The notes beneath the pieces were generated by a model. It had not been told where the DNA came from, made no database searches, and saw only the letters and a program-made list of their open reading frames with translations. This document shows, piece by piece, positions 11,001 to 40,358 of a DNA stretch of 45,590 bases (position 1 is its first letter; each line of letters opens with the position of its first letter). The position numbers and the translations under genes were made by a program. Where the stretch lies: IMG/VR virus record IMGVR_UViG_3300046009_009581, positions 1-45,590 of that record; one strand, 5' to 3'. Source of the DNA: a virus.

Positions 11001-11708
11001 ATGATAAAATTAGTCACATTGTTAAAAGAGATTACTAACCCATATAGTGTAGAATGGGTAGAACCTGATACGGCTTATTTTACTCAAGAATTAAGTGAGT
11101 TACTTGGGAATGAAATGAGGTTTTCTAAAAAAGAATTCTTTCATCCACAAAACTATGATTTAATGTATTCATTGTTTCCTCACACATTTAAAATGATTGC
11201 AGAACACTCAAAAGGATCTGAAGTGGAAAATAAACAAGAAATTAAAGATATATTGTTAAACAAAGAAATATCGGATTTAATGAATGATTGGGGTGATTTT
11301 AGACATACCCTAATGAAAGATTCTGAAGCAAAAAAAGAAGCTTTGAGTTTATTTAAAAAAGGTAAAATGGAAGAATGGCCTGATGATAAAATTAATAAAA
11401 CTTTTTACATGGGAGCATTCAAGAAATTATTCCCAAAAATGTTTAAAGACACAACTTCTTCTGGTTTAATGAAACAAATGAAAGGGGAAACTGGTGAAAC
11501 TGAACCTCATTTCAAAGGTTACGAAAAAAATATCCAAGATTTTAGAAACGAAAAACATAGAAAACTCCCCGCACCATTTATTATGAAACTACCATCAGGT
11601 GGAAGAGAAGGAAATGAATACACATTAATTGGTGGTCATAAACGTTCAACAATAGCTCACCAATTAAACATACCAATAAAAGTTTGGTTTATAGATTTAA
11701 TAAAATGA
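11001..11708 (+). CDS. ParB-like-fold candidate with MIKLxxLLxE leader
   Basis: 235 aa. Residues 1-10 (MIKLVTLLKE) are the leader shared with the proteins at 11705, 37829 and 39846 and end in LKE, the (L/I)xE form cut by T4-type prohead proteases. The middle is helical and charged. The end (LIGGHKRSTIAHQLNIPIKVWFID, GGHKR at about 211-215) looks like the ParB/sulfiredoxin-fold signature GxRR followed by a helix and a strand. No catalytic claim can be made. A terminator and the putative late box precede it, and translation is coupled to 11705 by ATGA. Head-packaging is inference from the leader. Confidence 0.6.
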   Translation: MIKLVTLLKEITNPYSVEWVEPDTAYFTQELSELLGNEMRFSKKEFFHPQNYDLMYSLFPHTFKMIAEHSKGSEVENKQEIKDILLNKEISDLMNDWGDFRHTLMKDSEAKKEALSLFKKGKMEEWPDDKINKTFYMGAFKKLFPKMFKDTTSSGLMKQMKGETGETEPHFKGYEKNIQDFRNEKHRKLPAPFIMKLPSGGREGNEYTLIGGHKRSTIAHQLNIPIKVWFIDLIK

Positions 11709-12664
11709 TAAAATTAACTGATTTACTTGGAGAATTAGATTTACGAGGTGGAGACCTAGATGAAAATATCACCTTAGAACAAGTATTGATTGCGTTCTTA
11801 GAAGACTTTCAAATACCTGAAGATGAGTTCTTTACTGTAAGTAGAGGTAAATTTAACTCTGAGAAATTTGATTTAAAACCAGATACTATATTTAACCCTC
11901 GTATAATTAAGAAAACAACTATTATAGCAGATGGTGAGTACGAGTTTATAGTACCTTCTTCTTATCGTGGTACTTTATATTTAGTAAATACTAAAGGTAC
12001 TACTTTAGATACTTATGTAGTTGGTCAAGTAGAAATAGAAAAAATATATGTTAACGCTAATTCTGGTAGAACTAAACCATATCGTTTACCTGGCGCAGAA
12101 ATAAGTTTAACTTATATTAACCCCAAATATCGTGGTAAAGGTTTAGGTGTTAAGATGTACACCATGTTACTTGACGCTTATAAAACTGTTTTCTCAGACA
12201 ATATTTTATACCCAGCGAGTTGGAATTTATGGATGAATAAATTAGCTCCTATAGGTTTACAAAGTGGTAATTTTGTGGGTGCTGAGGTAGCAGGGATTAT
12301 AATCCCACTCACACCTGAAGATATTGGTAACACTGATTTAATGCAGGGTATAGGGGTAGATCACTTAATTTTAACCATTGAGCCACCTCAAGTGTTACTT
12401 GACATTAAACAGGCTTTATCGGGGTTATCTTTAACTAAAAGTGACTATGGTATATATGAACCTACTTCAAATCTTAAAGTAACTCGATTGGATGAAATTG
12501 TTGATGAATCTAGTTCAATTGAAGAAGTAATTGAGGGCGCTGATTTAATGCAAATGGTTGGTCAAAGAGACGATGATGGATACTCAATTATAGTAGTGGC
12601 TACTCAGGATGCTTTAGCAATTGTTCGTGAAGAAGGTGACGATGTTATATTAGAGATTGTGTAA
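11705..12664 (+). CDS. GNAT acetyltransferase candidate with MIKLxxLLxE leader
   Basis: 319 aa. Residues 1-10 (MIKLTDLLGE) are the shared leader. YRGKGLGVKMYTMLLDAY (142-159) is a GNAT motif A, (R/Q)GxGxG/A, that binds the acetyl-CoA pyrophosphate, preceded by a beta strand (AEISLTYINPKY). The last 110 residues are acidic and of unknown fold, possibly an extra substrate-binding domain. GNATs transfer an acetyl group to an amine; the substrate here is unknown, perhaps a host protein. The ATG overlaps the stop of 11001-11708 (ATGA), which excludes the longer frame from 11684. Confidence 0.65.
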   Translation: MIKLTDLLGELDLRGGDLDENITLEQVLIAFLEDFQIPEDEFFTVSRGKFNSEKFDLKPDTIFNPRIIKKTTIIADGEYEFIVPSSYRGTLYLVNTKGTTLDTYVVGQVEIEKIYVNANSGRTKPYRLPGAEISLTYINPKYRGKGLGVKMYTMLLDAYKTVFSDNILYPASWNLWMNKLAPIGLQSGNFVGAEVAGIIIPLTPEDIGNTDLMQGIGVDHLILTIEPPQVLLDIKQALSGLSLTKSDYGIYEPTSNLKVTRLDEIVDESSSIEEVIEGADLMQMVGQRDDDGYSIIVVATQDALAIVREEGDDVILEIV

Positions 12665-12688
12665 TTTTGTAACCTCTCCGGTTGAATG

Positions 12689-12720
12689 TTTGGCTTCCGG
12701 GTGAATTGATGTTATATTTA
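12689..12720 (+). promoter_or_regulatory. -33/-7 promoter P21
   Basis: TTTGGC at 12689-12694, a 17-nt gap, and TTATATTTA at 12712-12720. It drives the gene at 12742. Confidence 0.8.
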
Positions 12721-12741
12721 GATATAATAAAAATTAAGGTT

Positions 12742-12981
12742 ATGGAAACAGTTAGAAATATTTTAGAGTTTTTAGATTTTAAAAATTCACTAATTTTAGT
12801 GACTATTGTAACATGTCTCAACATGGTATATATTCATACTAAAAATTTAGTTTTTCAATTAATGGTCCAAACATTAGGTATTAAAGCTAGTTTAATTGAG
12901 TTTAAAGCTCGTTTTTTAACATTTGCTTTACTTTACAGTGTAATTTATGGTGTTATATATTTAATTACTATTTTCGCCTAA
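12742..12981 (+). CDS. Two-helix membrane protein, 79 aa
   Basis: Hydrophobic segments at about 15-30 (LILVTIVTCLNMVYIH) and 58-79 (FLTFALLYSVIYGVIYLITIFA), with a short charged loop. Likely an inner-membrane protein of unknown function. AAGGTTATG context. Single gene between P21 and P22. Confidence 0.65.
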   Translation: METVRNILEFLDFKNSLILVTIVTCLNMVYIHTKNLVFQLMVQTLGIKASLIEFKARFLTFALLYSVIYGVIYLITIFA

Positions 12982-12983
12982 AA

Positions 12984-13015
12984 TTTGGCTTCACAGGAAA
13001 AGTTCATTATATTTA
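12984..13015 (+). promoter_or_regulatory. -33/-7 promoter P22
   Basis: TTTGGC at 12984-12989, a 17-nt gap, and TTATATTTA at 13007-13015. It drives the DUF932 gene. Confidence 0.8.
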
Positions 13016-13037
13016 AATAAATAAAAAAATAAAGGTT

Positions 13038-13841
13038 ATGCCACTAGATTTAAACAACAGTCAATTCCTGACTAAAGAGGAAATTAAAGAAAAAGCAAAA
13101 TCAATTTTCACAACTGATTCAGCTCCAGGTACAAGTCAAAAATATTCACATATCTCAACTGAACGTATCATAGATGATATGAGTGCTTTAGGTTGGGGTG
13201 TAGTTGATGCTAAACAAGTACGCGCCCGTAAAGGTGATGGTTACCAAAAACACCTAGTTGTGTTCCGTAATAATGATTTGTTCATTGAAGGTGAAGATGG
13301 TGATAATGTGTTTCCACAAATTCTATTAACTAATAGTCATGATGGTAAAAACGCATTTACATTCACAGCTGGTTTGTTCCGTTTAGTTTGTGAGAATGGT
13401 TTAGTAATTTCAACTCAAGAATTTGAGAATATGAAGATTCGCCATTATGGTTATGATTTTGAAGAGTTAGAGAAAGTAATCACTAACATGGTTGAAGCGC
13501 TTCCATTAGCAGTTGAGTCAATGAATAAGTTTAAACAAACTCAACTAGACCAAGAAACAATTCTTGAGTTTGCTAAAAGAGCAGTTCAAGCTCGTTTTGG
13601 TGAAGAACAAACACAAAACATTGCTATTGACTATAATGACTTGGTAACACCAACACGTCCTGAAGATCGTGGTAATGATTTATGGAGTGTATTTAATACA
13701 GTTCAAGAAAAAATTACTCAAGGAATGTTTAATTATACAGTTGGAGCTAAAGTTAGAAAAGCTCGTAAAATTAAAAACTTCCGCCAAGATTTAGATTTAA
13801 ATGCTAAGTTATATGAGTTAGCAGCTGAGTTTGCAGCTTAA
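13038..13841 (+). CDS. DUF932 family protein
   Basis: 267 aa, the usual length for this family. The core LLTNSHDGKNAFTFTAGLFRLVCENGLVI (about 98-126) is the DUF932 hallmark (NSHDGxxAF...GLFRxVCxNGL). The C-terminal third is helical and basic. DUF932 proteins are common on phages and plasmids, and their biochemical role is not established. P22 sits 23 nt upstream, the start context is AAAGGTTATG, and a strong terminator follows at 13867. Confidence 0.88.
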   Translation: MPLDLNNSQFLTKEEIKEKAKSIFTTDSAPGTSQKYSHISTERIIDDMSALGWGVVDAKQVRARKGDGYQKHLVVFRNNDLFIEGEDGDNVFPQILLTNSHDGKNAFTFTAGLFRLVCENGLVISTQEFENMKIRHYGYDFEELEKVITNMVEALPLAVESMNKFKQTQLDQETILEFAKRAVQARFGEEQTQNIAIDYNDLVTPTRPEDRGNDLWSVFNTVQEKITQGMFNYTVGAKVRKARKIKNFRQDLDLNAKLYELAAEFAA

Positions 13842-13866
13842 TAGATAGATTAGTTTTGGTTATAAG

Positions 13867-13892
13867 AGAGGAGCATTTGCTCCTCTTTTTTA
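13867..13892 (+). terminator. Intrinsic terminator
   Basis: AGAGGAGC (13867-13874), ATTT loop, GCTCCTCT (13879-13886), then T4. It ends the DUF932 transcript and abuts the late box at 13893. Confidence 0.85.
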
Positions 13893-13900
13893 TATTTATA
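13893..13900 (+). promoter_or_regulatory. Putative late box
   Basis: TATTTATA preceded by A, 15 nt before ATG 13916, right after a terminator, where a new promoter is expected. Confidence 0.55.
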
Positions 13901-13915
13901 CTAAAACACAACATT

Positions 13916-14203
13916 ATGAAAAAATTCTTTAAAGATCTATTATCAGGTTCTTCTGATACTTCAAGTAAGCGTTTCGCTTCATTATTAGCTTTATTCGTTG
14001 TTATATCTTTAGCATATATTGCCACTTATAAAGACGAAAAACATATCACACCTGAGTTCATGTTCGACTCAATAGCGTTAATCGCTGGTGGTGGATTAGG
14101 TTTAACTGTTATAGAAAACGTTGTTAAGATGAAACAACAAGCCAAGAATAACACATCAAATAACGGTAATACCCCACCTGCTAATCCAGATGAACAACTA
14201 TAA
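13916..14203 (+). CDS. Holin candidate
   Basis: 95 aa. Basic N-terminus (MKKFFKDLLSGSSDTSSKR), transmembrane helix 1 at about 20-38 (FASLLALFVVISLAYIATY), a charged loop, helix 2 near 50-67 (FDSIALIAGGGLGLTVIENVV), and a polar N/P-rich tail. The 'SSKR + two helices' layout is like putative holins of phages from Bacteroidetes. It could also be another small membrane protein. The frame is open upstream through the terminator, so ATG 13916 is chosen. The spanin-like pair lies 30 kb away. Confidence 0.55.
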   Translation: MKKFFKDLLSGSSDTSSKRFASLLALFVVISLAYIATYKDEKHITPEFMFDSIALIAGGGLGLTVIENVVKMKQQAKNNTSNNGNTPPANPDEQL

Positions 14204-14225
14204 TGTAAAATATAAATAGTCGTTT

Positions 14226-14252
14226 AAAGCCGGGTTAAACCCGGCTTTTTTT
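14226..14252 (+). terminator. Intrinsic terminator
   Basis: AAAGCCGGG (14226-14234), TTAAA loop, CCCGGCTTT (14240-14248), and a T run to 14252. Confidence 0.9.
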
Positions 14253-14263
14253 ATTAAAGTAAG

Positions 14264-14294
14264 TTTGGCTTCTTAATAAATAGATATTATATTA
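14264..14294 (+). promoter_or_regulatory. -33/-7 promoter P23 for the tRNA cluster
   Basis: TTTGGC at 14264-14269, a 17-nt gap, and TTATATTA from 14287. It lies 14 nt before the first tRNA. Confidence 0.7.
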
Positions 14295-14307
14295 ATATTA
14301 TGTAAAA

Positions 14308-14382
14308 GGCGGGATGGACTGGAGATGGTTCCAGCTTGGTCTCATAAGCCAAATGACGCAGGTTCGAGTCCTGCTCCCGCAA
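14308..14382 (+). tRNA. tRNA-Met (CAU)
   Basis: 75 nt. Acceptor GGCGGGA/TCCCGCA has a 1:72 G-A mismatch, D-stem CTGG/CCAG, anticodon stem TTGGT/GCCAA with loop CTCATAA (anticodon 14343-14345), and T-arm GCAGG-TTCGAGT-CCTGC. The unpaired 1:72 position recalls initiator tRNA, but the three G-C pairs of initiators are not complete (G-C, G-C, T.G), so initiator or elongator cannot be settled. Confidence 0.85.
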
Positions 14383-14388
14383 CTAAAT

Positions 14389-14486
14389 GCTCAAGTGGCG
14401 AAAGCGTGGTTTCCATGGAAATCCGATAGTAGACGCTAGATTTTCTAACTCGAAAGAGTGTGTAGGTGCAAGTCCTACCTTGAGTA
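14389..14486 (+). tRNA. tRNA-like RNA, isotype unclear
   Basis: 98 nt. The acceptor GCTCAAG (14389-14395) pairs with CTTGAGT (14479-14485, G.U at the end) and the discriminator is A. T-arm stem GTAGG/CCTAC is perfect, but the loop TGCAAGT has G where pseudouridine-55 is expected. ACTC-GAAA-GAGT could be a variable arm. The ends resemble tRNA-Leu (GTGGCG ... TAGACGC), with about 22 extra nt in the D-loop region that form a GGTTTCC/GGAAATCC hairpin. The anticodon arm is reduced to TAGA-TTT-TCTA. It may be a rearranged or non-decoding tRNA. Confidence 0.5.
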
Positions 14487-14492
14487 CAAATA

Positions 14493-14566
14493 GCGCCCTT
14501 AGCTCATTTGGTTAGAGCAACTGACTCATAATCAGTAGGTACCTGGTTCGATCCCAGGAGGGCGCA
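14493..14566 (+). tRNA. tRNA with CAU anticodon (Met or Ile2)
   Basis: 74 nt, fully canonical: acceptor GCGCCCT/AGGGCGC, D-arm AGCTC/GAGC with GGTTA, anticodon stem ACTGA/TCAGT with loop CTCATAA (anticodon 14527-14529), T-arm CCTGG-TTCGATC-CCAGG, discriminator A. With a second CAU tRNA in the same cluster, this one may be tRNA-Ile2, whose C34 is converted to lysidine to read AUA, a codon this phage uses often. CCA is not encoded. Confidence 0.9.
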
Positions 14567-14580
14567 CTAAATTTATTATT

Positions 14581-14724
14581 ATGTTAATACTAACAGCTAT
14601 TTTACTTATTGAAACTATTTTATCAATTACTTATCTTTATACTCTACATAAACGAGTAGAATATTTAGAAGACGAAATAAGTAAGTTAAAAACACAGAAT
14701 ATAAAACAATTATTAAAGGGTTAA
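14581..14724 (+). CDS. 47-aa membrane-anchored coiled-coil peptide
   Basis: One N-terminal transmembrane helix (ILTAILLIETILSITYLYTL), then KRVEYLEDEISKLKTQ as a short coiled coil. It starts 15 nt after the tRNA and shares the layout of the protein at 16296. Function unknown. A weak hairpin GTGGC/GCCGC follows at about 14738-14753. Confidence 0.55.
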   Translation: MLILTAILLIETILSITYLYTLHKRVEYLEDEISKLKTQNIKQLLKG

Positions 14725-14771
14725 TTTAATTATAAAAGTGGCTTAAAGCCGCTATTCCCCTACTTATCATA

Positions 14772-14779
14772 TATTTATA
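14772..14779 (+). promoter_or_regulatory. Putative late box
   Basis: TATTTATA preceded by A, 3 nt before ATG 14783. If it works like a T4 late promoter the mRNA would be nearly leaderless. Confidence 0.5.
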
Positions 14780-14782
14780 TAT

Positions 14783-15196
14783 ATGGATATTGAAGAAATA
14801 TTTAACTTATTTAAAAATCCTGAAGAAGAAAAGGATGAAAGTATCCAAATTAACTTAGCTGAATACCCAGCTGTATGGATGGGAATGTTTAAAAAGTTAA
14901 TATTAAATTATCAGACATTTAGTAAACAATTACTTAAATTTTTTGAAACCTCAGACCCTCAACTTGATACTAATGATATTGAAAAAGCTGGGTGTTATAT
15001 GGTGTTCAATAGAGCATTGGATAATTTATCTAAAATAGAAGTTGATAATTCTTTTCATATTGAGTGCCTTAAATTTTACGCTGATGATGATTTTAAAAAG
15101 GCTCTTAGCTTAGCTATAGATTATTTTGTATCTGAAGAAGAGTATGAGAAATGTTCATATCTTCAAAAAATTCATGATACAGTAAACTTCTCTTAA
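14783..15196 (+). CDS. Hypothetical helical acidic protein, 137 aa
   Basis: All-helical appearance with several aromatic positions (YPAVWMGMFKKLILNYQTFSKQLLKFFE). No recognised family. It starts right after a late box and lies just before the late sigma factor operon, so a structural or late regulatory role is possible. Confidence 0.65.
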   Translation: MDIEEIFNLFKNPEEEKDESIQINLAEYPAVWMGMFKKLILNYQTFSKQLLKFFETSDPQLDTNDIEKAGCYMVFNRALDNLSKIEVDNSFHIECLKFYADDDFKKALSLAIDYFVSEEEYEKCSYLQKIHDTVNFS

Positions 15197-15202
15197 AAAT
15201 AG

Positions 15203-15233
15203 CTTGGCTTTTATATTTTTACTATTTACATTA
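15203..15233 (+). promoter_or_regulatory. Weak -33/-7 promoter candidate P26
   Basis: CTTGGC at 15203-15208, a 17-nt gap, then TTACATTAT. The downstream box is imperfect. It precedes the 15330 gene across a 97-nt leader holding a 13-codon ORF (15246-15287), which could be a leader peptide. Confidence 0.4.
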
Positions 15234-15329
15234 TAACTACGAGTTATGAAACAATTAATAAACGTAGAGAAAAAGAAATGTGATTAAGGTAACTACGGGT
15301 AATGAAATATTCTATTAAAATAATTTACT

Positions 15330-15515
15330 ATGAAAAATAAAAATAATGTTCTACATCAATTAGATAAAATTGATAGTATTACTAACCAATTAAATTTTGT
15401 TGTGAAAAATCAACAACCAATTGAAGAATATCTAAAACTTTTAGAGATATTAAGAGAAACTGTAGACCAAACTCGTTTATTTGTTGAATCTGAGCAAACA
15501 ATGTATAACTACTAA
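15330..15515 (+). CDS. Small helical protein, 61 aa
   Basis: Helical, coiled-coil-like (LHQLDKIDSITNQLNFVVKNQQPIEEYLKLLEILRETVDQTRLFVESEQ). It lies 1 nt before the HD gene start, so the two are co-translated. Function unknown. Confidence 0.65.
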   Translation: MKNKNNVLHQLDKIDSITNQLNFVVKNQQPIEEYLKLLEILRETVDQTRLFVESEQTMYNY

Positions 15516-15516
15516 T

Positions 15517-16299
15517 ATGAATTTAACAGCCGAACAAATACAACAAAACTGGATAGATTTAGAGGAAACTATTAAATCATACATCAGTGAGCCACGTTGT
15601 TCACAGTTACTTGATTTCTACTCTAATTACTCAGAACGTCTTATGTTAATACCAGCAGCTCATAAGAAAGAATACCATAATGCTTTCCCAGGTGGTTACG
15701 TAGATCACGTATTACGGGTTATCGATTGTGCTCTTAAACTAAATAATGTTTGGGTTGAAATGGGAGTAGACACTTCTACTTACACTAAAGAAGAATTAGT
15801 ATTCGCAGCTTTAAACCATGATTTAGGTAAAATGGGTGATGAACAACATGATGCTTATATTCCTCAGGATGATCAATGGCGTAAAGATAAATTAGGTGAA
15901 GATTATAAATTTAATGACCGCTTAGAATTTATGTCCGTACCAGACCGTAGCTTACATTTACTACTTTCTCATGGTATCCAGATGTCTAAAAATGAATGGT
16001 TGGCAATTAAATTACATGATGGTTTATATGATGATGCTAATAAACCATATTTAATGTCTTGGTCACCAGAAACAAAACCTCGCACTTCATTAATTTATAT
16101 CATTCATCAGGCTGATTTAATGGCCGCTCGTATTGAGTTTGAACGTGAATGGAATCCAAAATTAAAAGATGGGAATAAAAAGAAAGTTAATAATTTTAGT
16201 TTAACTACTGAAAAGAAAGCTTCTAAACCAACAATTAAAACTAAAACATTAAGTTCAATTGAAAGCACAGGACTAATGAATATGTTAAATGATTTATGA
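15517..16299 (+). CDS. HD-domain phosphohydrolase
   Basis: 260 aa. HD-superfamily metal ligands are visible: H64 in GGYVDHVLRV, H101-D102 in LNHDLGKMGD, H164 region (LLLSHGIQ), and a C-terminal Asp in IIHQADLMAARIEFE. HD hydrolases cleave phosphate esters such as nucleotides; the substrate here is unknown. ATG 15517 is used, since the longer frame from 15481 overlaps the gene before. The stop overlaps 16296 (ATGA), giving an operon with the membrane protein and the sigma factor. Confidence 0.85.
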   Translation: MNLTAEQIQQNWIDLEETIKSYISEPRCSQLLDFYSNYSERLMLIPAAHKKEYHNAFPGGYVDHVLRVIDCALKLNNVWVEMGVDTSTYTKEELVFAALNHDLGKMGDEQHDAYIPQDDQWRKDKLGEDYKFNDRLEFMSVPDRSLHLLLSHGIQMSKNEWLAIKLHDGLYDDANKPYLMSWSPETKPRTSLIYIIHQADLMAARIEFEREWNPKLKDGNKKKVNNFSLTTEKKASKPTIKTKTLSSIESTGLMNMLNDL

Positions 16300-16571
16300 T
16301 AATACTAACAATAATATTAGGAATAATGGTCGTGATCTTAGGATACACGACCTTTAATCTTCTTAAAAAGAATGAACGACAAGAGGATATTTTAGCTGGT
16401 TATATGTCTTATTTAAACAAAATATCAGATACAATTGACTTTGCTGATAAGAAACTTAAAGAAGTAGACGCTAGGGGATCATTTGAATCAGATGATGAAG
16501 TAGGTTTTTTCTTTAAACAAATTAAACAATTGCAAGATATATTAAACGCTTTTAAAATTAAAAATTTATGA
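16296..16571 (+). CDS. Membrane-anchored helical protein, 91 aa
   Basis: N-terminal transmembrane helix (MIILTIILGIMVVILGYTTFNLL), then a charged helix (KISDTIDFADKKLKEVDARGSF) and a final helix (FFFKQIKQLQDILNAFKIKNL). Linked by ATGA overlaps to both neighbours, the HD hydrolase and the sigma factor. Function unknown. Confidence 0.7.
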   Translation: MIILTIILGIMVVILGYTTFNLLKKNERQEDILAGYMSYLNKISDTIDFADKKLKEVDARGSFESDDEVGFFFKQIKQLQDILNAFKIKNL

Positions 16572-17278
16572 TTGAGGTGAAAGCTAAGAAAAAATCCAAT
16601 CAATATTTTACTCAAGATACTGAAGATGCTATAGTGTTATATAATAATACTTCTGATTATGATGAGAAAGATAGAATATATAGAACACGTATACATTATG
16701 CTTTCTTTAAATTAACAGAAAATATTATCCATACTTTTAAATTTTACTACACTGAAGTAGATAATATTGAGGATTTACAACATGAAGTAATAACATTTTT
16801 ACTTTCCAAAATCCATCTATTCAACCCAGCTAAAGGAGCTAAAGCATACTCATATTTTGGTACTATTGCTAAACGTTATTTAATTATTACTAATACTAAA
16901 AATTATAAAAAACGAGTAGATAAAGCACCTATTGAGGAAATTGAATCAAATGAAGATTTCTCATACACAATTGAAGAAGGATCAGCTCAAGATAAATTAT
17001 CTAATTTTATTGATGAATATGTCTTACATTGTACTAAGAATATTTATACTTTATTTCCTAAAGAAAATGACGCTCAAATAGCTGACGCTATTTTGGAATT
17101 ATTCCGTAAGCGTGAGAGTATAGACATTTTTAATAAAAAAGCACTGTATATATACATTCGTGAGATTATTGACGCTAAAACCCCTAAAATCACTAAGATA
17201 GCCGATAAATTGTATATTGTATTTAAACAACATTATTTTTTCTATCTAGAAAATGGATATACAGATTTCCATCGTTGA
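16568..17278 (+). CDS. gp55-like late sigma factor
   Basis: 236 aa. Residues about 40-115 have a sigma region 2 look: a helix (HYAFFKLTENIIHTFKFYY), then IEDLQHEVITFLLSKIHLFNPAKGAKAYSYFGTIAKRYLI, which matches the gp55 pattern DLxQExxxxxLxKxxxFNPxKGxxAYxYFxxIxxR. T4 gp55 directs host RNA polymerase to late promoters (TATAAATA). The C-terminal part is helical and Lys-rich, where T4 gp55 has its clamp-binding tail. This makes the ATATTTATA boxes downstream the natural targets. It lies directly before the tail module. Confidence 0.8.
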   Translation: MIEVKAKKKSNQYFTQDTEDAIVLYNNTSDYDEKDRIYRTRIHYAFFKLTENIIHTFKFYYTEVDNIEDLQHEVITFLLSKIHLFNPAKGAKAYSYFGTIAKRYLIITNTKNYKKRVDKAPIEEIESNEDFSYTIEEGSAQDKLSNFIDEYVLHCTKNIYTLFPKENDAQIADAILELFRKRESIDIFNKKALYIYIREIIDAKTPKITKIADKLYIVFKQHYFFYLENGYTDFHR

Positions 17279-17286
17279 TATTTATA
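17279..17286 (+). promoter_or_regulatory. Putative late box
   Basis: TATTTATA preceded by A, 14 nt before ATG 17301. It stands at the border of the sigma-factor operon and the tail module. Confidence 0.55.
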
Positions 17287-17300
17287 ATTAAAATAAATAT

Positions 17301-17645
17301 ATGAGTAATGGTTTAGATAATGTTGTTTTTGGTAAAAAGAAATTCTCTGATTTATTAGAGGAGATTTATGATAATCAAAAGAAGAAAGAAAAACAAATAT
17401 CTATATTAATTTCTGAGTTAAAACCACTTGTACAAAGTATAGGTGACGCTACTCTTATTGTTCCTTTAATTAAAGAATACTTAGAAATAAGTGTTAAAAA
17501 TGATGAACAATTAATCAAAATGGCTACTATTATTCAACGTATTATGAATAATAACACTAATAACACTGATGGTGGGTTTGGTATCTCTGAAGAAGAAAAA
17601 CAACAGTTATTAGCTGAAATAGATAAATTTAAAACTGAAGAATAA
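17301..17645 (+). CDS. Helical virion-operon protein, 114 aa
   Basis: Helical with coiled-coil potential (DLLEEIYDNQKKKEKQISILISELKPLVQ; LIPLIKEYLEISVKNDEQLIKMATIIQRIM) and an N/T/G linker near the end. Its stop overlaps the next start (TAATG), so it belongs to the tail operon. It may be an assembly factor or a minor tail component. Confidence 0.65.
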   Translation: MSNGLDNVVFGKKKFSDLLEEIYDNQKKKEKQISILISELKPLVQSIGDATLIVPLIKEYLEISVKNDEQLIKMATIIQRIMNNNTNNTDGGFGISEEEKQQLLAEIDKFKTEE

Positions 17646-22275: not shown

Positions 22276-22650
22276 ATGAAAATCGATAGTTTAAAAAAAT
22301 TAATTAAAGAAGCAGTACGTGAAGCCATTCAAGAAGAATTAAAAGATATTCTACTTGAAGCGGTTAAATCACCTAAAACAGTAGTACAAGAAACATATGC
22401 TGGTGTGCAACCATCATATAGTCCACAACCAGTAATAGCCCAATCAAATGGAACAACTGTGAATCATGATCTTAGACGTAATCTAAGAAGTATGATTGGA
22501 AGTGAATTTGACACAGTTATTACTACTAATTCATCACACGCTCAACCATCTTATACTCCTCCACCTGTTAATACAGCTGGTGAAGGATCAAGTTTACCTG
22601 GTGGAGAAGTAGGTTTAGATCAAATAATGGGATTAATGAACACTAAATAA
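22276..22650 (+). CDS. Small virion-operon protein, 124 aa
   Basis: N-terminal amphipathic helix KIDSLKKLIKEAVREAIQEELKDILLEAV, a type often seen at the start of T4-like virion proteins, then a Pro/Gln/Ser-rich disordered region and a short helical tail (GLDQIMGLMNTK). Overlaps gp25 by TAATG. It may be a baseplate assembly helper. No known family is assigned. Confidence 0.65.
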   Translation: MKIDSLKKLIKEAVREAIQEELKDILLEAVKSPKTVVQETYAGVQPSYSPQPVIAQSNGTTVNHDLRRNLRSMIGSEFDTVITTNSSHAQPSYTPPPVNTAGEGSSLPGGEVGLDQIMGLMNTK

Positions 22651-32838: not shown

Positions 32839-32857
32839 ATAAAATCATAAAAAAGAA

Positions 32858-33514
32858 ATGGGATATTTAAATAACCAAATCATAACAGTTGACGCTATCT
32901 TAACTAAAAAAGGTAGAGAGTTACTAGCCAAAAATGATGGCTCATTCAGAATTACACAGTTTGCCTTATCAGACGATGAAATAGATTATACTTTATATAA
33001 TCCAAATAATCCATCAGGCTCGGCTTATTATGGTCAAGCGATTGAAGGTATGCCTCTTTTAGAAGCATTCTCAGATGAGACTCAAATAATGAAATATTTA
33101 CTTACTACTTTACCCCGTGGTACAGCTAAAATGCCTATTATTAATATTGGTTATACTAATATTACATTAAAACAAGGTGCTTCATTATCAATCACACCTC
33201 AAACATTAAATTATTTAGGTGGAACACAAACTTATGAAACATCTGGTTATAATTTTACTATTGGTGATGTTAGAACAATGAGTGTATTTAATGGTGTTGG
33301 TATTAATACAACAGCTGCTACATCACTTAATTCAACAACTACTCTTGGAACTAATGTGTCTAAAACAGTAATTGGTTCTACATTAAATATGACTGGTACT
33401 ACTATTAATACTTTATTTGGTAATCAAACTCAATTACAAACTATATTAATTGTACAAGGTAGAGATAGTGGAGCAAGAGTAACAATTCCAATTACTATAA
33501 CAAAAGTTAGTTAA
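32858..33514 (+). CDS. Conserved T4-like virion protein, 218 aa
   Basis: The opening MGYLNNQIITVDAILTKKGRELLAKNDGSFRITQFALSDDEIDYTLYNP is a signature shared by virion proteins of marine T4-like phages (VDAxLTKKGRELLAxNDGSFxITxFALxDDEIDY). The C-terminal half is a beta-rich, Thr-rich domain. Role in the virion not defined. Late box 20 nt upstream. Confidence 0.75.
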   Translation: MGYLNNQIITVDAILTKKGRELLAKNDGSFRITQFALSDDEIDYTLYNPNNPSGSAYYGQAIEGMPLLEAFSDETQIMKYLLTTLPRGTAKMPIINIGYTNITLKQGASLSITPQTLNYLGGTQTYETSGYNFTIGDVRTMSVFNGVGINTTAATSLNSTTTLGTNVSKTVIGSTLNMTGTTINTLFGNQTQLQTILIVQGRDSGARVTIPITITKVS

Positions 33515-33531
33515 TAAAAATATTATAAAAA

Positions 33532-34605
33532 ATGTCATATAAAACCTTAGACCCTCAAGATTTCCTAGTTAGTGCGGATACTGTAACAGCTCCATGTTGG
33601 ACTAATTATATTTCTCCACTAACAGCTATGTATACATCATCTGTACAAATAGCTGGATCATCTGGAAATTATTACCTAAATATATATAATTTAGATCCAT
33701 CTACTAATTCAAGTACTACTGAGTTGCAATTTAATATTACTTATGGCAATAAACAAGGATCAGGATCATTATTATATGATGCTGGAATTAATGGTTTATC
33801 CCCAACTAGAACAATTTATGGACAGTGGAGAAATATGATTTATGGAGATGAAAATACAGATTTTTCATTTTCAACTGTAACCCCAACTCAACAAGATTTT
33901 TATGCTATCACAATTGATAGAGCTAGGTACAAAGAATCATTATTCCCTGGATCATTAAATTTAACACTATACTCAGCTTCTAATTCAATTACTCTAACAG
34001 ATAATAGTTTAGATACAACTACTATTACATATAGTGATGCTGGTCGTATATTTCAAATAGTATCTGGAAGTAATGGATCCGCTGTCACAACAGCTAATAG
34101 TGCCTTAGGAGCAATTAGTGCGGGTATGACAACATCAGGATCATATGGTTTATTTTTACCTGATGTTGGAACTATTATATTAAATGCGGCCGCTTTAGAT
34201 TTACCATATGCTAGTGGAGGCATTGCTTTAAATACTTTAAGAACATCAAATTCTAATGTTAATAACCCACTACGTTTATACTCAACAGCTTCTGGAAGAA
34301 TTGGTATGACTACAGGTTCATTTACAAGTAGTTTTGCTTTAAACAGTCAAGAAACAATCACCTCTGATTTTGTATTCTGTAGAGCTAGAAATGCTGAGTT
34401 TAATTACACTGAAAATCCAAGTTTCATATCAGGTAGTACAGGCGCTGTATTATATGATTTGTTCATTAATAGCCCAACCACTTATATTACAACAGTGGGA
34501 ATGTATAATGATCAAAATGAATTATTAGCTGTAGCTAAATTATCTAAGCCACTTAAGAAAGACTTTACAAAAGAAGCATTAATACGTGTTAAATTAGACT
34601 TTTAA
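33532..34605 (+). CDS. Virion structural protein, 357 aa
   Basis: Shares its C-terminal block with the next protein: AEFNYTENPSFISGSTGAVLYDLFINSPTTYITTVGMYNDQNELLAVAKLSKPL against EEFNFSLNPSLISGSTEGTVYNFVTSSYFAPYVTTVGFYNEAQELLMVAKLGQPL. The common block holds the motif FNxxxNPSxISGST and is known from tail-region proteins of T4-like phages. Position suggests a baseplate or tail-sheath-end component. Confidence 0.7.
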   Translation: MSYKTLDPQDFLVSADTVTAPCWTNYISPLTAMYTSSVQIAGSSGNYYLNIYNLDPSTNSSTTELQFNITYGNKQGSGSLLYDAGINGLSPTRTIYGQWRNMIYGDENTDFSFSTVTPTQQDFYAITIDRARYKESLFPGSLNLTLYSASNSITLTDNSLDTTTITYSDAGRIFQIVSGSNGSAVTTANSALGAISAGMTTSGSYGLFLPDVGTIILNAAALDLPYASGGIALNTLRTSNSNVNNPLRLYSTASGRIGMTTGSFTSSFALNSQETITSDFVFCRARNAEFNYTENPSFISGSTGAVLYDLFINSPTTYITTVGMYNDQNELLAVAKLSKPLKKDFTKEALIRVKLDF

Positions 34606-34608
34606 TGA

Positions 34609-35601
34609 ATGAGTGCTTACAAACAATTTTTAAGCACGGATGTTATAGTATCTCCGTTAGTTGTTAACAAAAGTTTCACTTTTGCGGGAAGTGCATCTTG
34701 TGCTGAGGTTGGAATTCAAAGATATATAGGGGTTAATACCCCTTTTCTTTCATCTTTTGAAACAAATGACGTTTCCCCATTCCAATCAATTTCAGGTTCT
34801 TTAGTTTATAATTCTATAAAACAATTATATTATACTAATTACATCCCTAACCCAATTAGTGGGTCACCTTATATCACTAATTATTTAGGACAAGTAGTTG
34901 AAGATGACTCATTAACTAATGTTTATAGTAGATTTTATAATTATGAACAAACTAGTTTATTCCAAACTAGCTCAGCTACTTATATTTCTAATTACGGATT
35001 TAGTAGATATTTCCCTACCCAATCAGCATTAACTTTTAGTGGAGGAAATAATGAAGGCACTATAGGTGTTCTATCTATACCTAAGAATTTATTTGGGGAT
35101 TACATTAATCCAAATTCATTCTATATGTCTGTAGATTTAGAAGAATCAGGTAACCCATATATCTTTACAGACAATGGTGAGGGTCTTTTAAATTTATCAG
35201 GTTCTACTGAAACAAAAGGAATTATTAATTATTCTCATGGGATAATAGTAATTGATTTATTCAACGCTGCAGATGCTGTTTATGATTGGATTGGAACATA
35301 TGTTGGAGCTGGTTCCCCATTCACATGCAGTTTCCAAAGTTCAAGAACAATATTTGAAACACAATACAAATGTACTATTAGACCTGAAGAATTTAACTTT
35401 AGCCTAAACCCATCATTAATATCAGGCTCAACAGAAGGAACAGTTTATAATTTTGTAACAAGTTCATATTTTGCTCCATATGTCACAACAGTAGGTTTTT
35501 ATAATGAAGCTCAAGAATTACTAATGGTAGCTAAATTAGGACAACCACTTCCAACAAGTACAACAACTGATACAACAATATTAGTTAATATAGATAAATA
35601 A
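34609..35601 (+). CDS. Virion structural protein, paralog of 33532
   Basis: 330 aa. The C-terminal 75 residues align with the protein before it (see that entry), while the N-terminal parts differ, consistent with duplication of a shared C-terminal domain. Starts 3 nt after the previous stop. Ends the main tail block. Confidence 0.7.
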   Translation: MSAYKQFLSTDVIVSPLVVNKSFTFAGSASCAEVGIQRYIGVNTPFLSSFETNDVSPFQSISGSLVYNSIKQLYYTNYIPNPISGSPYITNYLGQVVEDDSLTNVYSRFYNYEQTSLFQTSSATYISNYGFSRYFPTQSALTFSGGNNEGTIGVLSIPKNLFGDYINPNSFYMSVDLEESGNPYIFTDNGEGLLNLSGSTETKGIINYSHGIIVIDLFNAADAVYDWIGTYVGAGSPFTCSFQSSRTIFETQYKCTIRPEEFNFSLNPSLISGSTEGTVYNFVTSSYFAPYVTTVGFYNEAQELLMVAKLGQPLPTSTTTDTTILVNIDK

Positions 35602-35605
35602 AATT

Positions 35606-36073
35606 ATGAGTAAATGGTTATATAAAGGTAGTGAAATAAATAATATAGAAGACTTTGGTGATAAAACACCATTTGGTTTTGTTTATTTAATTTCTAATAC
35701 TATCAATGGTAAAATATACATTGGTAAAAAATTCCTACAGCATAAAAAAACTAAAAAATTAGGTAAAAAAGCCATGGCTGAACAAACTGGTCCTGGTCGT
35801 AAGAAAACTAAAGAAGTCACTTACGCTGAATCAGATTGGAAAACATATTGGGGTAGTTGTAAACCATTATTAGAAGATGTAGCAACTATTGGTGAGGATA
35901 AATTCTATAAAGAAATTTTAGAATTAGCATGGACTTCAAAACATTTATCATATCTTGAAGCTAAATACCAATTTGTAACTGAGTGTCTAGAAAAAGATAG
36001 TTACAATGATAACATACAAGGAAGATACTTTAAAAAAGATTTGGCATCCCCAACTGTAGTTGATATACTATAA
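35606..36073 (+). CDS. GIY-YIG nuclease-fold protein
   Basis: 155 aa. GFVYLISNTINGKIYIGKK at 24-42 gives the two-strand GIY-YIG motif (VYL ... YIG), followed by a basic loop and WKTYWGSC; a Glu in LSYLEAKYQF near residue 118 fits the metal-binding residue. Similar proteins occur in many T4-like phages, where their role is not settled (DNA processing or a domesticated homing nuclease). It has no separate DNA-binding tail. It begins the replication/DNA-processing block after the tail genes. Confidence 0.8.
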   Translation: MSKWLYKGSEINNIEDFGDKTPFGFVYLISNTINGKIYIGKKFLQHKKTKKLGKKAMAEQTGPGRKKTKEVTYAESDWKTYWGSCKPLLEDVATIGEDKFYKEILELAWTSKHLSYLEAKYQFVTECLEKDSYNDNIQGRYFKKDLASPTVVDIL

Positions 36074-36075
36074 GT

Positions 36076-37008
36076 ATGGTAAATCAAGCTTTAGTAGCTA
36101 CATTAAATTCTGTTTTAGGACAAGGTAAAAAAACCTCAAAAGGTAATTACGCTTATCATTGTCCATTCTGTAATCATCATAAACCTAAACTAGAAGTTAA
36201 CTTATCTGAGAATGATAAAGGTGAACATCCATGGCATTGCTGGGTTTGTGATAAACGAGGTAAAAGTTTAGTTAAACTGTTTAAACTAACATCAGCCCCA
36301 GCTGATAAAATAGCTGAGGTAAAATCATTAGTTAAATATGTCTCCGATCATTTAGAAGTAACAGTAACTAATACTAAAGTAGAATTACCACCTGAGTTTA
36401 AATCATTAACTAACATATACAATAGCATTGAATATAAGCACGCTATCAGTTATTTAAAACGCAGGAATATCACCCTTAACGACATTATTAAATATAATAT
36501 AGGTTATTGTGAATCCGGTAAGTATAACAACTGTATTATTATACCATCATATGACGCTAACGGAATTTTAAATTATTTTACAGCTAGAAGTTTTGATAAA
36601 AACTCATCTTTAAAATATAAAAATCCTGATGTATCTAGAGATATAATACCGTTTGAACTGTTTATTAATTGGAATATACCAATTACATTATGTGAGGGAC
36701 CATTTGATGCGCTTGCTATTAAACGTAATGTTATCCCGTTATTAGGCAAAAATATTCAGAAAAGTTTAAGAAAAAAATTAGTAACATCTAAAGTAGAAAA
36801 AATATACATAGCGTTAGATAAAGATGCTATTAAACAAGCTCTATCATTTTGTGAAGAGCTACTTAATGAAGGTAAAGAAGTATACCTGGTAGATATGGAT
36901 GATAAAGATCCAAGTGAAATGGGATTTGAAAAATTCACTAGTTTGATTCAAACATGTCAACCATTAACATTCTCAAATCTATTTGAGAAAAAATTACAAT
37001 TAATATGA
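36076..37008 (+). CDS. DNA primase (gp61/DnaG-like)
   Basis: 310 aa. Zinc-binding domain CPFCNHH...HCWVC (Cys 29, 32, 55, 58), then a helical linker. The Toprim core is visible as LCEGPFDAL (205-213, catalytic Glu) and IALDKDA (245-251, Asp pair). It would make RNA primers for the lagging strand, together with a replicative helicase not seen in this window. Its stop overlaps the nuclease gene by ATGA. The zinc domain spacing is typical of phage primases. Confidence 0.9.
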   Translation: MVNQALVATLNSVLGQGKKTSKGNYAYHCPFCNHHKPKLEVNLSENDKGEHPWHCWVCDKRGKSLVKLFKLTSAPADKIAEVKSLVKYVSDHLEVTVTNTKVELPPEFKSLTNIYNSIEYKHAISYLKRRNITLNDIIKYNIGYCESGKYNNCIIIPSYDANGILNYFTARSFDKNSSLKYKNPDVSRDIIPFELFINWNIPITLCEGPFDALAIKRNVIPLLGKNIQKSLRKKLVTSKVEKIYIALDKDAIKQALSFCEELLNEGKEVYLVDMDDKDPSEMGFEKFTSLIQTCQPLTFSNLFEKKLQLI

Positions 37009-37775
37009 GTAAAATCAAACATTCATATGATCGAATTTTAGAAATATCAGACGACCATAAACAAATTACTCTCCCTGATTCTAGATATTATAGAAGAAAC
37101 GGTGACTACTACCCATCAGTTACTTATGTATTAAGTTTTTATCCTAAAGGAAAACATTTTGAAGATTGGCTTAAAAAAGTAGGTTATGCTTCAGAATACA
37201 TTGTTAAAAAAGCCGCTGATGAAGGTACTCAAGTTCATGAAATGATTGAAGAATATTTAAATGGTGAAGAATTAAAATTTCTAAATATACATGGGACACC
37301 TCAATATCATCCTGAAGTGTGGCAAATGTTTTTACGCTTTGTAGAGTTTTGGGAAACATATAATCCTAAATTAATTGAAACAGAAGTACATTTATTCTCA
37401 GATGAATTAAAAGTAGCTGGTACATGCGATTTAGTTTGCGAGATAGATGGTGAGTTATGGATTATTGATTTTAAAACATCTAACCATTTACAGACAACTT
37501 ATGATTTACAAACAGCTGTTTATAAACAATGTTATAAAGAATGTTATGGAAAAACAGCAGATCACGCAGCTGTGTTATGGTTAAAATCATCTAAACGTAA
37601 GTTAAGTAAAGAAAAAATGACAGGTAAAGGATGGGAGATATATGAATCAGAACGTACATTTGAAGAAAATTTAGATATATTCAAAACAGTACGTAAGTTA
37701 TTTGATCTTGAAAATCCTAAATCAGCGCCTGTGTTTGAGTCATTTAGAACTACTGCAAAACGAGAAGATCTATAA
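37005..37775 (+). CDS. RecB-like PD-(D/E)XK nuclease
   Basis: 256 aa. Motifs in order: GTQVHEMIE (H78), VAGTCDLVCEIDGELWIIDFKTS (G139, D142, D155 and K157), and the Q169 in YDLQTAVYK typical of the RecB/Cas4/lambda-exonuclease clan. Likely a DNA exonuclease used in recombination or repair. It is translationally coupled to the primase. The final RTTAKREDL tail is basic. The substrate cannot be told from the sequence. Confidence 0.82.
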   Translation: MSKIKHSYDRILEISDDHKQITLPDSRYYRRNGDYYPSVTYVLSFYPKGKHFEDWLKKVGYASEYIVKKAADEGTQVHEMIEEYLNGEELKFLNIHGTPQYHPEVWQMFLRFVEFWETYNPKLIETEVHLFSDELKVAGTCDLVCEIDGELWIIDFKTSNHLQTTYDLQTAVYKQCYKECYGKTADHAAVLWLKSSKRKLSKEKMTGKGWEIYESERTFEENLDIFKTVRKLFDLENPKSAPVFESFRTTAKREDL

Positions 37776-37783
37776 TATTTATG
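37776..37783 (+). promoter_or_regulatory. Weak late-box variant
   Basis: TATTTATG directly after the nuclease stop, 45 nt before ATG 37829. The last base differs from the consensus. Confidence 0.3.
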
Positions 37784-37791
37784 ATAAGAGG

Positions 37792-37823
37792 CTTGGCTTA
37801 GTCAAGTCTCTTTATTATATTTA
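37792..37823 (+). promoter_or_regulatory. -33/-7 promoter P25 in a hairpin
   Basis: CTTGGC at 37792-37797, a 17-nt gap, and TTATATTTA at 37815-37823. GAGGCTTG and CAAGTCTC around the upstream box form a 7-of-8 stem followed by TTTATT, so a terminator overlaps the promoter. Confidence 0.75.
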
Positions 37824-37828
37824 CATAG

Positions 37829-38638
37829 ATGATTAAACTAATCGAATTACTAAAAGAAGTTCAAAACGGTAAAAAAGCTATTATTATGGCTGGGGCCGCG
37901 GGTGTTGGTAAAGGTACATTTATTAAAGATATAAAAAATAAGTACCCACAAGTTAAATCTCTTAACCCTGATGATTTTTTTAATGCTGAATTAAAAGGAA
38001 GAGGAGTATCATTAGATTTAAAAAATGTATACAAATCAGATCCTGAAGGTAGATCAATAGCAGCCCAAGCTATGGGTACAGCGAGAAGTAAATACGAAAA
38101 AGAAATCCAATCATCTTTAGACAACTCAGTATTAATATTTGATATTACTTCAAATTCATATAATCCTATCTTAAAATTAAAAACAAGATTAGAAGAAAAT
38201 GGATATGAAGTAATGATGGTTTATTTATTTGCTTCATTAGATACTGTTTTAGATAGAAATGATAGAAGATTTGAAAAATCAGGAGGTGAAGATAGAAGTT
38301 TATTCCCACCAATGGTTGTTAAAACATGGAAAGGAGTAGTTGAAAATTTTGAAAAATATCAACAGTTATTTGGAGATAATTTTGTTCCAACAACTACTGA
38401 TGATACACCTATATCTTCATACTCATATGAAGAATTAAAAGATAAATATATTAAACCATATTATCCTGATCCTACAACCACAAAAGAAAAAACTGAAAAA
38501 GAAATCCAACAAGCTGAAAAAGAAAGAATAGAATTAATACAACTACTAAAAAAAGATAACCCAGCTATTCAAAATATTATTAAGAGTTTTAAAACTAAAG
38601 ACGAAGTTTTAGACAAAGTAAATACATTTTTAGGATAA
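37829..38638 (+). CDS. Zeta-toxin-like P-loop kinase with MIKLxxLLxE leader
   Basis: 269 aa. Leader MIKLIELLKE at 1-10. Walker A GAAGVGKGT at 22-30, LNPDDF at 45-50 (where zeta toxins have DPDxF), DITSNS at 105-110, and an Arg-rich lid (DRNDRRFEKSGGEDRSLF at 142-159) resembling the zeta-toxin RxxRxxxGGR region. Zeta toxins phosphorylate UDP-N-acetylglucosamine and block wall synthesis; other members phosphorylate other substrates. No epsilon antitoxin is seen nearby. The C-terminal 60 residues are a charged helix. Coupled to the next gene by TAATG. Confidence 0.65.
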   Translation: MIKLIELLKEVQNGKKAIIMAGAAGVGKGTFIKDIKNKYPQVKSLNPDDFFNAELKGRGVSLDLKNVYKSDPEGRSIAAQAMGTARSKYEKEIQSSLDNSVLIFDITSNSYNPILKLKTRLEENGYEVMMVYLFASLDTVLDRNDRRFEKSGGEDRSLFPPMVVKTWKGVVENFEKYQQLFGDNFVPTTTDDTPISSYSYEELKDKYIKPYYPDPTTTKEKTEKEIQQAEKERIELIQLLKKDNPAIQNIIKSFKTKDEVLDKVNTFLG

Positions 38639-39849
38639 TGAATTCATTAGTTAAATCACTTATATCTCCATTCTTAAATGAAGAAGAAATATCTAATGTA
38701 GGTAAAAATGAGTATACTTCTACAATTGGAGTATTTGGTGGTGGGTTTAAACCCCCAACTAAAGGTCATTTTGAAGTTGCAAAGCAAGCTTTAAAAATGT
38801 ATCCTAATTTAGATAAATTTATAATTTATGTTGGTACAGGTGGTGATAGATCAAAATATATAACTCAAGCTCAATCATTAGCTATTTGGAATATATATAA
38901 AGATAAATTACCTAGTAATAAAATAGAAATTATTTCATCTGCTAATCCACGAATGTCTGTTTACAATTTAAGAAGAGAAAATCCATCAACTCAAATTAAA
39001 TGGTTTATAGGTTCTAGAGAAGGAAATGAGCAAGATGAAAAGGATTATCAAAACGCATTATCAACTATAGGACCTACTAGACCTAATTTAGAATTAATAA
39101 ATATAGTAACACCTGAAGAAGTTAGTGGTACTAAAGCTAGACAAGTATTAACTAATAGAGAACTATTATTTAATTATCTCCCAAATGAATTAACAGACGA
39201 AGAAAAAGAAGAAATATTTAATATACTTAATCCAATGTCTGAAGGTGAAGAAATAACATCTTGGGTTAATGAAGTAGTACCTGAACCTGAGGTAATATCT
39301 AAAAATAATTTTTTTGAACCACTTCAAGATAAACAAATAGATATAAACATATCTTCTGAACCAACTAAAGTAGATTATTATAAGGAATACTATAAAAATT
39401 TATCACCAACTGATTTTAAAGTTGGTAAAGATAAAGATAAAATAGTAATATCTAATATTAATAAAAATGGATTAGAACATAATCCTGAATTTAAAGAATT
39501 ATTAGTGTCATTGACAATGTATATGATGGATCATATTAATATTGAACCATTACCTGATTTAATATTCATTGAAGATGATGTCAAAAATGCTAAAGATTTA
39601 TTAGGAAAAACAGCATATTACAACCCAGAAAATAAATCAATTACTCTATATACTTTAAACAGACATCCAAAAGATATATTACGTTCATATGCTCATGAAA
39701 TGATTCATCATAAACAAAATCTTGAAGGTAGATTAACTAACATTCAAGGTCATAATATAAATGAGGATGATTATCTAAAGGAAATAGAATTAGAAGCATA
39801 TAAGTACGGAAATGGTGAAATGTTTAGAGGTTGGGAGAATTCATTATGA
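38638..39849 (+). CDS. Nucleotidyltransferase fused to HEXXH metallopeptidase-like domain
   Basis: 403 aa. The N-terminal part is a cytidylyltransferase/NMNAT-like domain: GVFGGGFKPPTKGHFEVAKQAL (31-52; TKGH stands for the HxGH motif), and SGTKAR at 163-168 stands for the (I)SxTxxR motif. The C-terminal part has HEMIHHKQNLEGRL with the zinc ligands H353 and H357, catalytic E354, and a likely third-ligand Glu in KEIELEAYKYGNG (382-386). A linker of about 90 residues joins the two. Function of the fusion unknown. Stop overlaps the nucleotidase gene by ATGA. Confidence 0.75.
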   Translation: MNSLVKSLISPFLNEEEISNVGKNEYTSTIGVFGGGFKPPTKGHFEVAKQALKMYPNLDKFIIYVGTGGDRSKYITQAQSLAIWNIYKDKLPSNKIEIISSANPRMSVYNLRRENPSTQIKWFIGSREGNEQDEKDYQNALSTIGPTRPNLELINIVTPEEVSGTKARQVLTNRELLFNYLPNELTDEEKEEIFNILNPMSEGEEITSWVNEVVPEPEVISKNNFFEPLQDKQIDINISSEPTKVDYYKEYYKNLSPTDFKVGKDKDKIVISNINKNGLEHNPEFKELLVSLTMYMMDHINIEPLPDLIFIEDDVKNAKDLLGKTAYYNPENKSITLYTLNRHPKDILRSYAHEMIHHKQNLEGRLTNIQGHNINEDDYLKEIELEAYKYGNGEMFRGWENSL

Positions 39850-40358
39850 TTAAATTAAAAGAGTTATTAGAAGAAGTTGAAAACAATAAGTATACTATCT
39901 ATTGTGATATGGATGGTGTGTTAGTTGATTTTGACAAAGGTTATAAAGATTTAACAGGTAAATTACCTAAAGATGCAGGTGATGGCCCTGAATTTTGGGA
40001 ACCAATACATAAAGCAGGAGCGTCATTTTGGATAAAATTAAAATGGATGCCTGATGGTCATACATTATGGAAATACATTAACAAATATAATCCTATATTA
40101 TTATCAGCCCCTTCAAAAGAAGAATCATCTAAAATAGGTAAACGAGTATGGAAAAAGAATAATTTACCTGACACTAAATTAATTTTAACACCAGCTAGGT
40201 TTAAACAAAAATACTCTGGAGAAAATAAAATACTTATTGACGATAGAGAAGACAATATCCAACAGTGGAAAGATAAAGGTGGAATAGGCATATTGCACAC
40301 ATCAGCAGCAGATACAATTAAACAACTAGAAAAACTACCAAATTGGCCTAAAAATTAG
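39846..40358 (+). CDS. 5'(3')-deoxyribonucleotidase-like HAD protein with MIKLxxLLxE leader
   Basis: 170 aa. Leader MIKLKELLEE at 1-10. HAD motif I is DMDGVLVDF at 21-29 (D21 nucleophile, D23 acid/base), motif II has LLSAPS at 85-90, and motif III IDDREDN at 131-137. This set is typical of the small phage and bacterial 5'(3')-nucleotidases that remove phosphate from dNMPs. It could adjust nucleotide pools. The ATG at 39846 overlaps the previous stop, so the longer frame from 39831 is not used. Confidence 0.8.
   Translation: MIKLKELLEEVENNKYTIYCDMDGVLVDFDKGYKDLTGKLPKDAGDGPEFWEPIHKAGASFWIKLKWMPDGHTLWKYINKYNPILLSAPSKEESSKIGKRVWKKNNLPDTKLILTPARFKQKYSGENKILIDDREDNIQQWKDKGGIGILHTSAADTIKQLEKLPNWPKN

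Follow-up and report, generated by a model that had tools for sequence, protein, structure and literature searches.

Why should four proteins of different families, encoded in one viral DNA, begin with nearly the same ten residues? The DNA analysed here (IMG/VR record IMGVR_UViG_3300046009_009581; the whole stretch of 45,590 bp, linear, 31% GC, is called the window below) is, judged by its genes, a fragment of a T4-type myovirus. A preliminary description had pointed out four starts of the form MIKLxxLLxE and proposed that they target their proteins to the capsid. All four are present as described, each with an ATG codon on the + strand, and the strict pattern has no fifth copy in the window:

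11001 to 11030, + strand: leader MIKLVTLLKE of a 235-residue protein (gene 11001-11708)
11705 to 11734, + strand: leader MIKLTDLLGE of a 319-residue GNAT-domain protein (gene 11705-12664)
37829 to 37858, + strand: leader MIKLIELLKE of a 269-residue zeta-toxin/P-loop kinase-like protein (gene 37829-38638)
39846 to 39875, + strand: leader MIKLKELLEE of a 170-residue HAD 5'-deoxyribonucleotidase-like protein (gene 39846-40358)

The fold labels first given to these proteins hold for the kinase (Pfam Zeta_toxin, 1.2e-5), the GNAT protein (4.3e-4, marginally over the Pfam cut-off) and the HAD nucleotidase (5'-deoxyribonucleotidase, PHROG 4e-25, with matches to PDB nucleotidases as well). The ParB-like label of the 11001 protein found no support, as no family matched and the structural model was of low confidence (mean pLDDT 43).

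Our analysis indicates that MIKLxxLLxE probably serves a group of T4-type phages from water samples as their capsid-targeting sequence (CTS). In T4, the prohead protease gp21 cuts after L/I-X-E (PMC9026906), which is the LxE rule on which the proposal had been built. Mutants of the T4 CTS assign targeting to residues 4 and 7 and processing to residues 8 and 10, and replacement of residue 10 by Asp abolishes processing while targeting survives (PMC9026906). The capsid-targeting proposal is supported by the positions that are fixed in the leader, by its likeness to the start of T4 gp24, by its modularity, and by the protease and portal genes of related phages.

Coincidence was ruled out by the frequency of the leader. 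With positional residue frequencies taken from 283 genes of the window and a close relative, 4.4e-4 MIKLxxLLxE starts are expected in the window's 71 called genes, compared with the four observed (Poisson, ~1e-15). We also examined 1.1 Mb of related phage DNA, collected mainly via the HAD body, where 60 of the 62 occurrences of MI[KRS]Lxx[LI][LI]xE in open frames begin at Met, and where 40 permuted motifs gave 0 or 1 match each (mean 0.05). Without their leaders, the proteins tagged in this DNA form 16 groups that lack mutual BLAST similarity; 21 tagged members belong to the kinase family. A degenerate DNA pattern scan of IMG/VR, combined with the earlier loci, widened the set to at least 202 non-redundant tagged bodies in at least 74 groups, and a second, different tagged protein was found on 30 of 99 pattern-selected contigs among the matches listed.

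Pattern-selected contigs fix the pattern positions by construction, and our statements on fixed positions rest on homologues found via the protein bodies. In the kinase, HAD and GNAT homologues found in this way, positions 2, 4, 7 (L or I), 8 and 10 are fixed, with the exception of a K at position 10 in one HAD homologue, and positions 5, 6 and 9 vary most. The GNAT leader is present in every homologue that covers the start (L192-L203). The similarity had been said to stop at residue 10, and the positional entropy agrees, with 0-0.8 bit at positions 2-4, 7, 8 and 10 and at least 3.5 bits from position 11 onward, in a sample that was chosen in part by the leader itself. Synonymous codons are used without restriction at the fixed residues (for instance, six Leu codons at position 4). 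Because synonymous codons vary, the constraint acts on the protein and not on RNA or DNA, and a signal at either of these levels was ruled out.

These properties are those of a T4-type CTS: the leader stands on unrelated proteins, ends in (L/I)-x-E, and is constrained at positions 4, 7, 8 and 10, with position 2 fixed too. In T4 itself, gp24 offers a better comparison than the internal proteins do. Its 10-residue N-terminal peptide is removed by gp21 (PMC9958956), and its start, MAKINELLRE↓STTT (the arrow marks a known or predicted cut), departs from MIKLxxLLxE at just two places, with A instead of I at position 2 and I instead of L at position 4, so that length, register, K3, I/L4, L7, L8 and E10 are shared. 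The difference is that gp24 is a shell protein, whereas the tagged proteins are predicted to be internal cargo. The tags of T4 IPII, IPIII and IPI (MKTYQEFIAE↓A; MKTFKEFTSTTTPVSTITE↓A) are also N-terminal and portable from one protein to an unrelated one, comprise 10 residues (19 in IPI), end in (L/I)-x-E and have positions 4, 7, 8 and 10 as the decisive ones. They differ from our leaders at residues 2-6 and in the residue after the cut (P1'), which is often I, V or L here, and they are carried by small basic proteins instead of a wide set of enzymes. A 54-residue open frame in T4 (NC_000866, ~19110, - strand) begins with MKTFKEFIKE↓DM, like an internal-protein tag.

The window ends before its head genes, and the rest of the system is seen in its relatives. 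The isolate Flavobacterium phage vB_FspM_immuto_2-6A (immuto) shares with the window a baseplate wedge protein (46% identity) and the gene order primase, exonuclease, NadR-like, HAD nucleotidase. A near-complete relative, IMGVR_UViG_3300011115_000874 (160,798 bp; G1 below), matches many window proteins, often with ~60-90% identity, and in it the counterparts of the genes at the right end of the window lead on to those for terminase, portal, prohead protease, scaffold and major capsid protein. Hosts are recorded for two relatives, Flavobacterium sp. LMO8 for immuto and Microcystis elabens for Mel-JY01.

The preliminary description had named the lack of a prohead protease gene as a ground for rejection, and this objection fails for the near-complete relatives, which encode the T4 head set of Gp20 portal, Gp23 major capsid protein and Gp21-type prohead protease together with a T4-type scaffold. 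Peptidase_S77 and a T4 portal are present in all seven tagged records longer than 150 kb. The G1 protease matches T4 gp21 in the PDB (5jbl, E = 8e-13), and G1 also has a gp23 homologue (E = 3e-27). Cut sites predicted by homology in the capsid proteins of five relatives, near the expected mature gp23 start, are QLVVE↓A, QLVVE↓S, QLVTE↓T, QLISE↓A and QIVSE↓A, and the protease N-termini MKQVLIE↓T and MSKQVLIE↓T resemble that of T4 gp21, MNEPQLLIE↓T. In Pelagibacter phage HTVC008M and Methylophilales phage Melnitz the protease and portal are present, no MIKL tag was found, and the HADs bear other short leaders.

In addition, the genomes with MIKLxxLLxE (type A) contain two further kinds of leader, MK[LIV]SxLKxIIKEE (type B) and QF.RMQKLAGIITE↓S/G (type C). 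The scaffold C-termini of five relatives read RMQRLAGLRK, RWQKLAGIIK, RWQKLAGIK, RMKKLAGL and RMKKLAGIVK, and the type C leaders resemble this end of the scaffold with a protease site added behind it. Because of this resemblance, we suggest that the leaders work by mimicking a scaffold contact.

The leader also comes and goes independently of the protein behind it. In another relative, G007 (locus L191), the counterpart of the 11001 protein (84% identity in the pairwise alignment, 86% in the tblastn match) has MKKLNLKQIIKEEIRKILKE in place of MIKLVTLLKE, with identity resuming at LKE and the same ITNPYS next. In G1, an alpha/beta-hydrolase-like protein with the leader MIKLTHLLKE occupies the slot of 11001 beside the same GNAT gene. 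The stand-alone HAD nucleotidase has the leader, the HAD fused behind NadR has none, the NadR then bearing its own, and the most distant HADs are without it. AlphaFold models the window HAD (mean pLDDT 91) with a leader helix at residues 4-13, a mean pLDDT of 55 over residues 1-10, and a fold that begins at residue 17. We rejected the idea that the leader is the N-terminal part of each enzyme fold, given the leaderless fused HADs, the start of the HAD fold, and a tagged superoxide dismutase of G007 whose Pfam domain begins at residue 25, after a 24-residue extension. The ending is kept even where the leader deviates: in a set listed by hand and partly related by descent, [LIV]xE occurs in 29 of 29 leaders (15 NadR, 9 HAD, 5 kinase; nearly all deviating), compared with 15.2 after shuffling. 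Types A and B have been swapped on one cargo, and the turnover of the cargo is fast.

We propose that the ten residues, probably as a short helix, would bind the scaffold core of the prohead via positions 4 and 7, and that the protein behind the tag would in this way be built into the prohead. Once the shell is closed, the Gp21-type protease would cut after Glu10, at (L/I)-L-x-E↓, and free the enzyme, which would remain in the head and enter the host with the DNA. The tag itself is modular and portable, and the same genomes contain several types of it.

The timing of expression was approached through two sequence motifs, called late-type and early-type from the genes behind each. In G1, the late-type motif ATATTTATA has 46 copies on the coding strand vs 7 on the other, and sits before the sheath, tube, tape measure, hub and portal genes; the early-type motif TTATATTTAG is found before early-region genes. 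The late motif lies ~12 nucleotides before the ATG of two tagged G1 genes, 53950, which is located among early-type genes, and 104173, and in variant form before one tagged gene of the window:

10980 to 11000, + strand: late-type promoter-like motif ttcttttaATATTTATtgac, ~12 nucleotides upstream of the ATG of the 11001 leader

Over all contigs, the core ATATTTAT occurs within the 30 nucleotides ahead of 20% of tagged vs 10% of untagged genes (p = 7e-5, operon position uncontrolled), which counts in favour of the capsid-targeting reading. The two promoter-like classes are seen in both G1 and the window (for instance, window 22260 and 44580), and several late motifs stand so close to the ATG (12-14 nucleotides) that the 5' leader would be very short or absent.

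Several observations weigh against the capsid-targeting reading. The window kinase gene (37829) has an early-type motif, and therefore not all tagged genes are plainly late, while the homologue of 11001 in G007 sits inside the ribonucleotide reductase (nrd) operon. The window lacks head genes, because the fragment stops before the head module, as judged by the gene order of G1. In the literature searched we found no virion proteome of any member of the group, including immuto and Mel-JY01. The hydrophobic moment of the leaders is no higher than that of shuffled ones, and the argument from an amphipathic helix as such was dropped. Finally, the caveat raised at the outset about the residue after the cut holds, since P1' is I, L, V and V in the window, vs A, S or T in the T4 sites compared; across all tags it is I in 45, V in 28, A in 21, E in 20, S in 16 and G in 15 of 202, among the matches listed. 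Because P1' is hydrophobic, cleavage is somewhat less certain than targeting.

The same residues favour a sub-case of targeting in which the tagged proteins are packaged and the tag stays uncut, since I, V or L follows the Glu. The T4 mutant with Asp at residue 10, which is targeted and not processed (PMC9026906), is a precedent for it. We consider this unlikely, as positions 8 and 10, on which processing depends in T4, belong to the best conserved ones, deviating leaders retain LxE, and A, S or G stands at P1' in part of the tagged families.

Less probable again is that the leader is a docking helix for a structure other than the head, such as the membrane, a phage chaperonin, or a replication or transcription complex. 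Some tagged genes are indeed found elsewhere than in the head module, behind early-type promoter motifs, the nrd operon houses the 11001 homologue, and a nucleotidase and a kinase could serve nucleotide metabolism. A docking helix would not be expected to have a near-invariant Glu10 and a boundary exactly at LxE; moreover, the tag shares length and register with the gp21 substrate gp24, none of the known genes for replication, nucleotide or tail functions in G1 has type A, and type C leaders are similar to the scaffold C-terminus. A promoter-plus-start cassette that spreads cargo genes by recombination, with no function of the shared start in the protein, is very improbable: in L192 the GNAT gene directly follows DNA that precedes 11001 in the window, which exchange via common starts would predict, but upstream DNA is generally unshared, the codons at the fixed residues differ widely, and the residue pattern is kept between proteins of only 25-55% identity.

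Alongside the four strict copies of the proposed capsid-targeting leader, the window has three related starts, and immuto has leaders as well:

38638 to 38682, + strand: probable variant leader MNSLVKSLISPFLNE of a NadR/cytidylyltransferase-like protein (gene 38638-39849)
40363 to 40395, + strand: possible variant leader MSKYSLIKLME of a 153-residue protein (gene 40363-40824)
22276 to 22311, + strand: type B leader MKIDSLKKLIKE of a 124-residue protein directly upstream of a gp25-like baseplate gene (gene 22276-22650)
immuto 24569: leader MIKLIDLLTE↓S
immuto 103366: leader MISIYNILKE↓V
immuto 109856: leader MKKVMGNLADLLLE↓E

Homologues of the NadR-like protein have the leaders MNSLVKSLILPFLTE, MKSLVKSLITPFLAE and MIDLNTILNE. 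The variant suspected at 40363 is plausible, as homologues of that protein have the starts MKYSLVRLMENE or MSKYSLKRLMEAD, with MKYSLVRLME and MSKYSLKRLME among their leaders, and the HAD homologue L047 starts with MSKYSLKELFKE, the same opening as the 40363 protein. The type B leader of 22276 is kept in G1 (41148), and immuto (81525) has a similar start. The peptide RxQKLAGI, C-terminal in the G1 scaffold (155405), returns as N-terminal RMQKLAGIITE in G1 156449, G7 97842/104271/104609 and immuto 25061/111675. Elsewhere in the window, ARAGORN calls a tRNA-like gene at 14308-14383, with a two-base anticodon (ct) and no amino acid assigned.

The proteins behind the leader include several recognizable enzymes. 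The Fe/Mn superoxide dismutase of G007 (47433; L213:7433-8119; Pfam 1.6e-30), with the leader MITLLEILKE, is predicted to be an antioxidant enzyme packaged in the virion. A tagged ART-PolyVal protein was found in L087:4514-4897 (2e-10), and a tagged 2H phosphoesterase in L148:96-635, with weak Acb1 similarity (3.7e-4, below the curated cut-off). Cargo of these kinds, ART-PolyVal, superoxide dismutase and Acb1/2H phosphoesterase-like, suits early action in the host. T4 offers precedents, since its ADP-ribosyltransferase Alt is injected and its IPI acts as an inhibitor of a restriction enzyme (PMC9026906, PMC3012670). Mel-JY01 has paralogous tagged proteins (L223:276-923, 2056-2715) with a WHxT...S..R motif, which may be another ADP-ribosyltransferase family. 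A tagged 141-residue family (L055:16507-16929; G1 16929) is elsewhere annotated as high-potential iron-sulfur protein, and its member in Actinomycetia phage DSL-LC01 adjoins genes annotated as capsid maturation protease.

Other phages offer partial parallels. T4 Alt is packaged enzyme cargo with a short leader (MELITELFDE..), and the tagged ART-PolyVal protein of L087 may be comparable, but ART-PolyVal is a different ART clade (PMC5512222), and the Alt family had no match among the tagged proteins scanned. DarB of P1 is also taken into the head by an N-terminal signal (PMC9024508), whereas the Dar proteins have no shared consensus and P1 seems to be without a separate scaffold. In SPN3US and other phiKZ-like phages, a gp21-related protease processes internal proteins C-terminal to Glu, at A-X-E (PMC5694885); in contrast to our leaders, their propeptides are mostly longer than 100 residues, with no common 10-residue tag. 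The system described here would be a variant of the known CTS system, with a cargo that is wider and more enzymatic than described for T4 in the papers cited.

The proteins injected by a phage decide the first minutes of infection, and they are known for few phages, as purified virions are required. Should the tag prove to be a CTS, the proteins that a large environmental T4-type group injects could be read from sequence. We consider it slightly better than an even chance that a small set of tags (A, B and C), one of which copies the scaffold C-terminal peptide together with a protease site, loads dozens of unrelated enzymes into the heads, including antioxidant, ADP-ribosylating and counter-defence ones, in uncultured T4-type phages, whose injected proteins would then be listable from DNA alone. 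Most of the tagged families are without a known domain, and on the CTS reading they would be candidates for new counter-defence and host-takeover functions. The tag could also double as a new, experimentally portable packaging signal.

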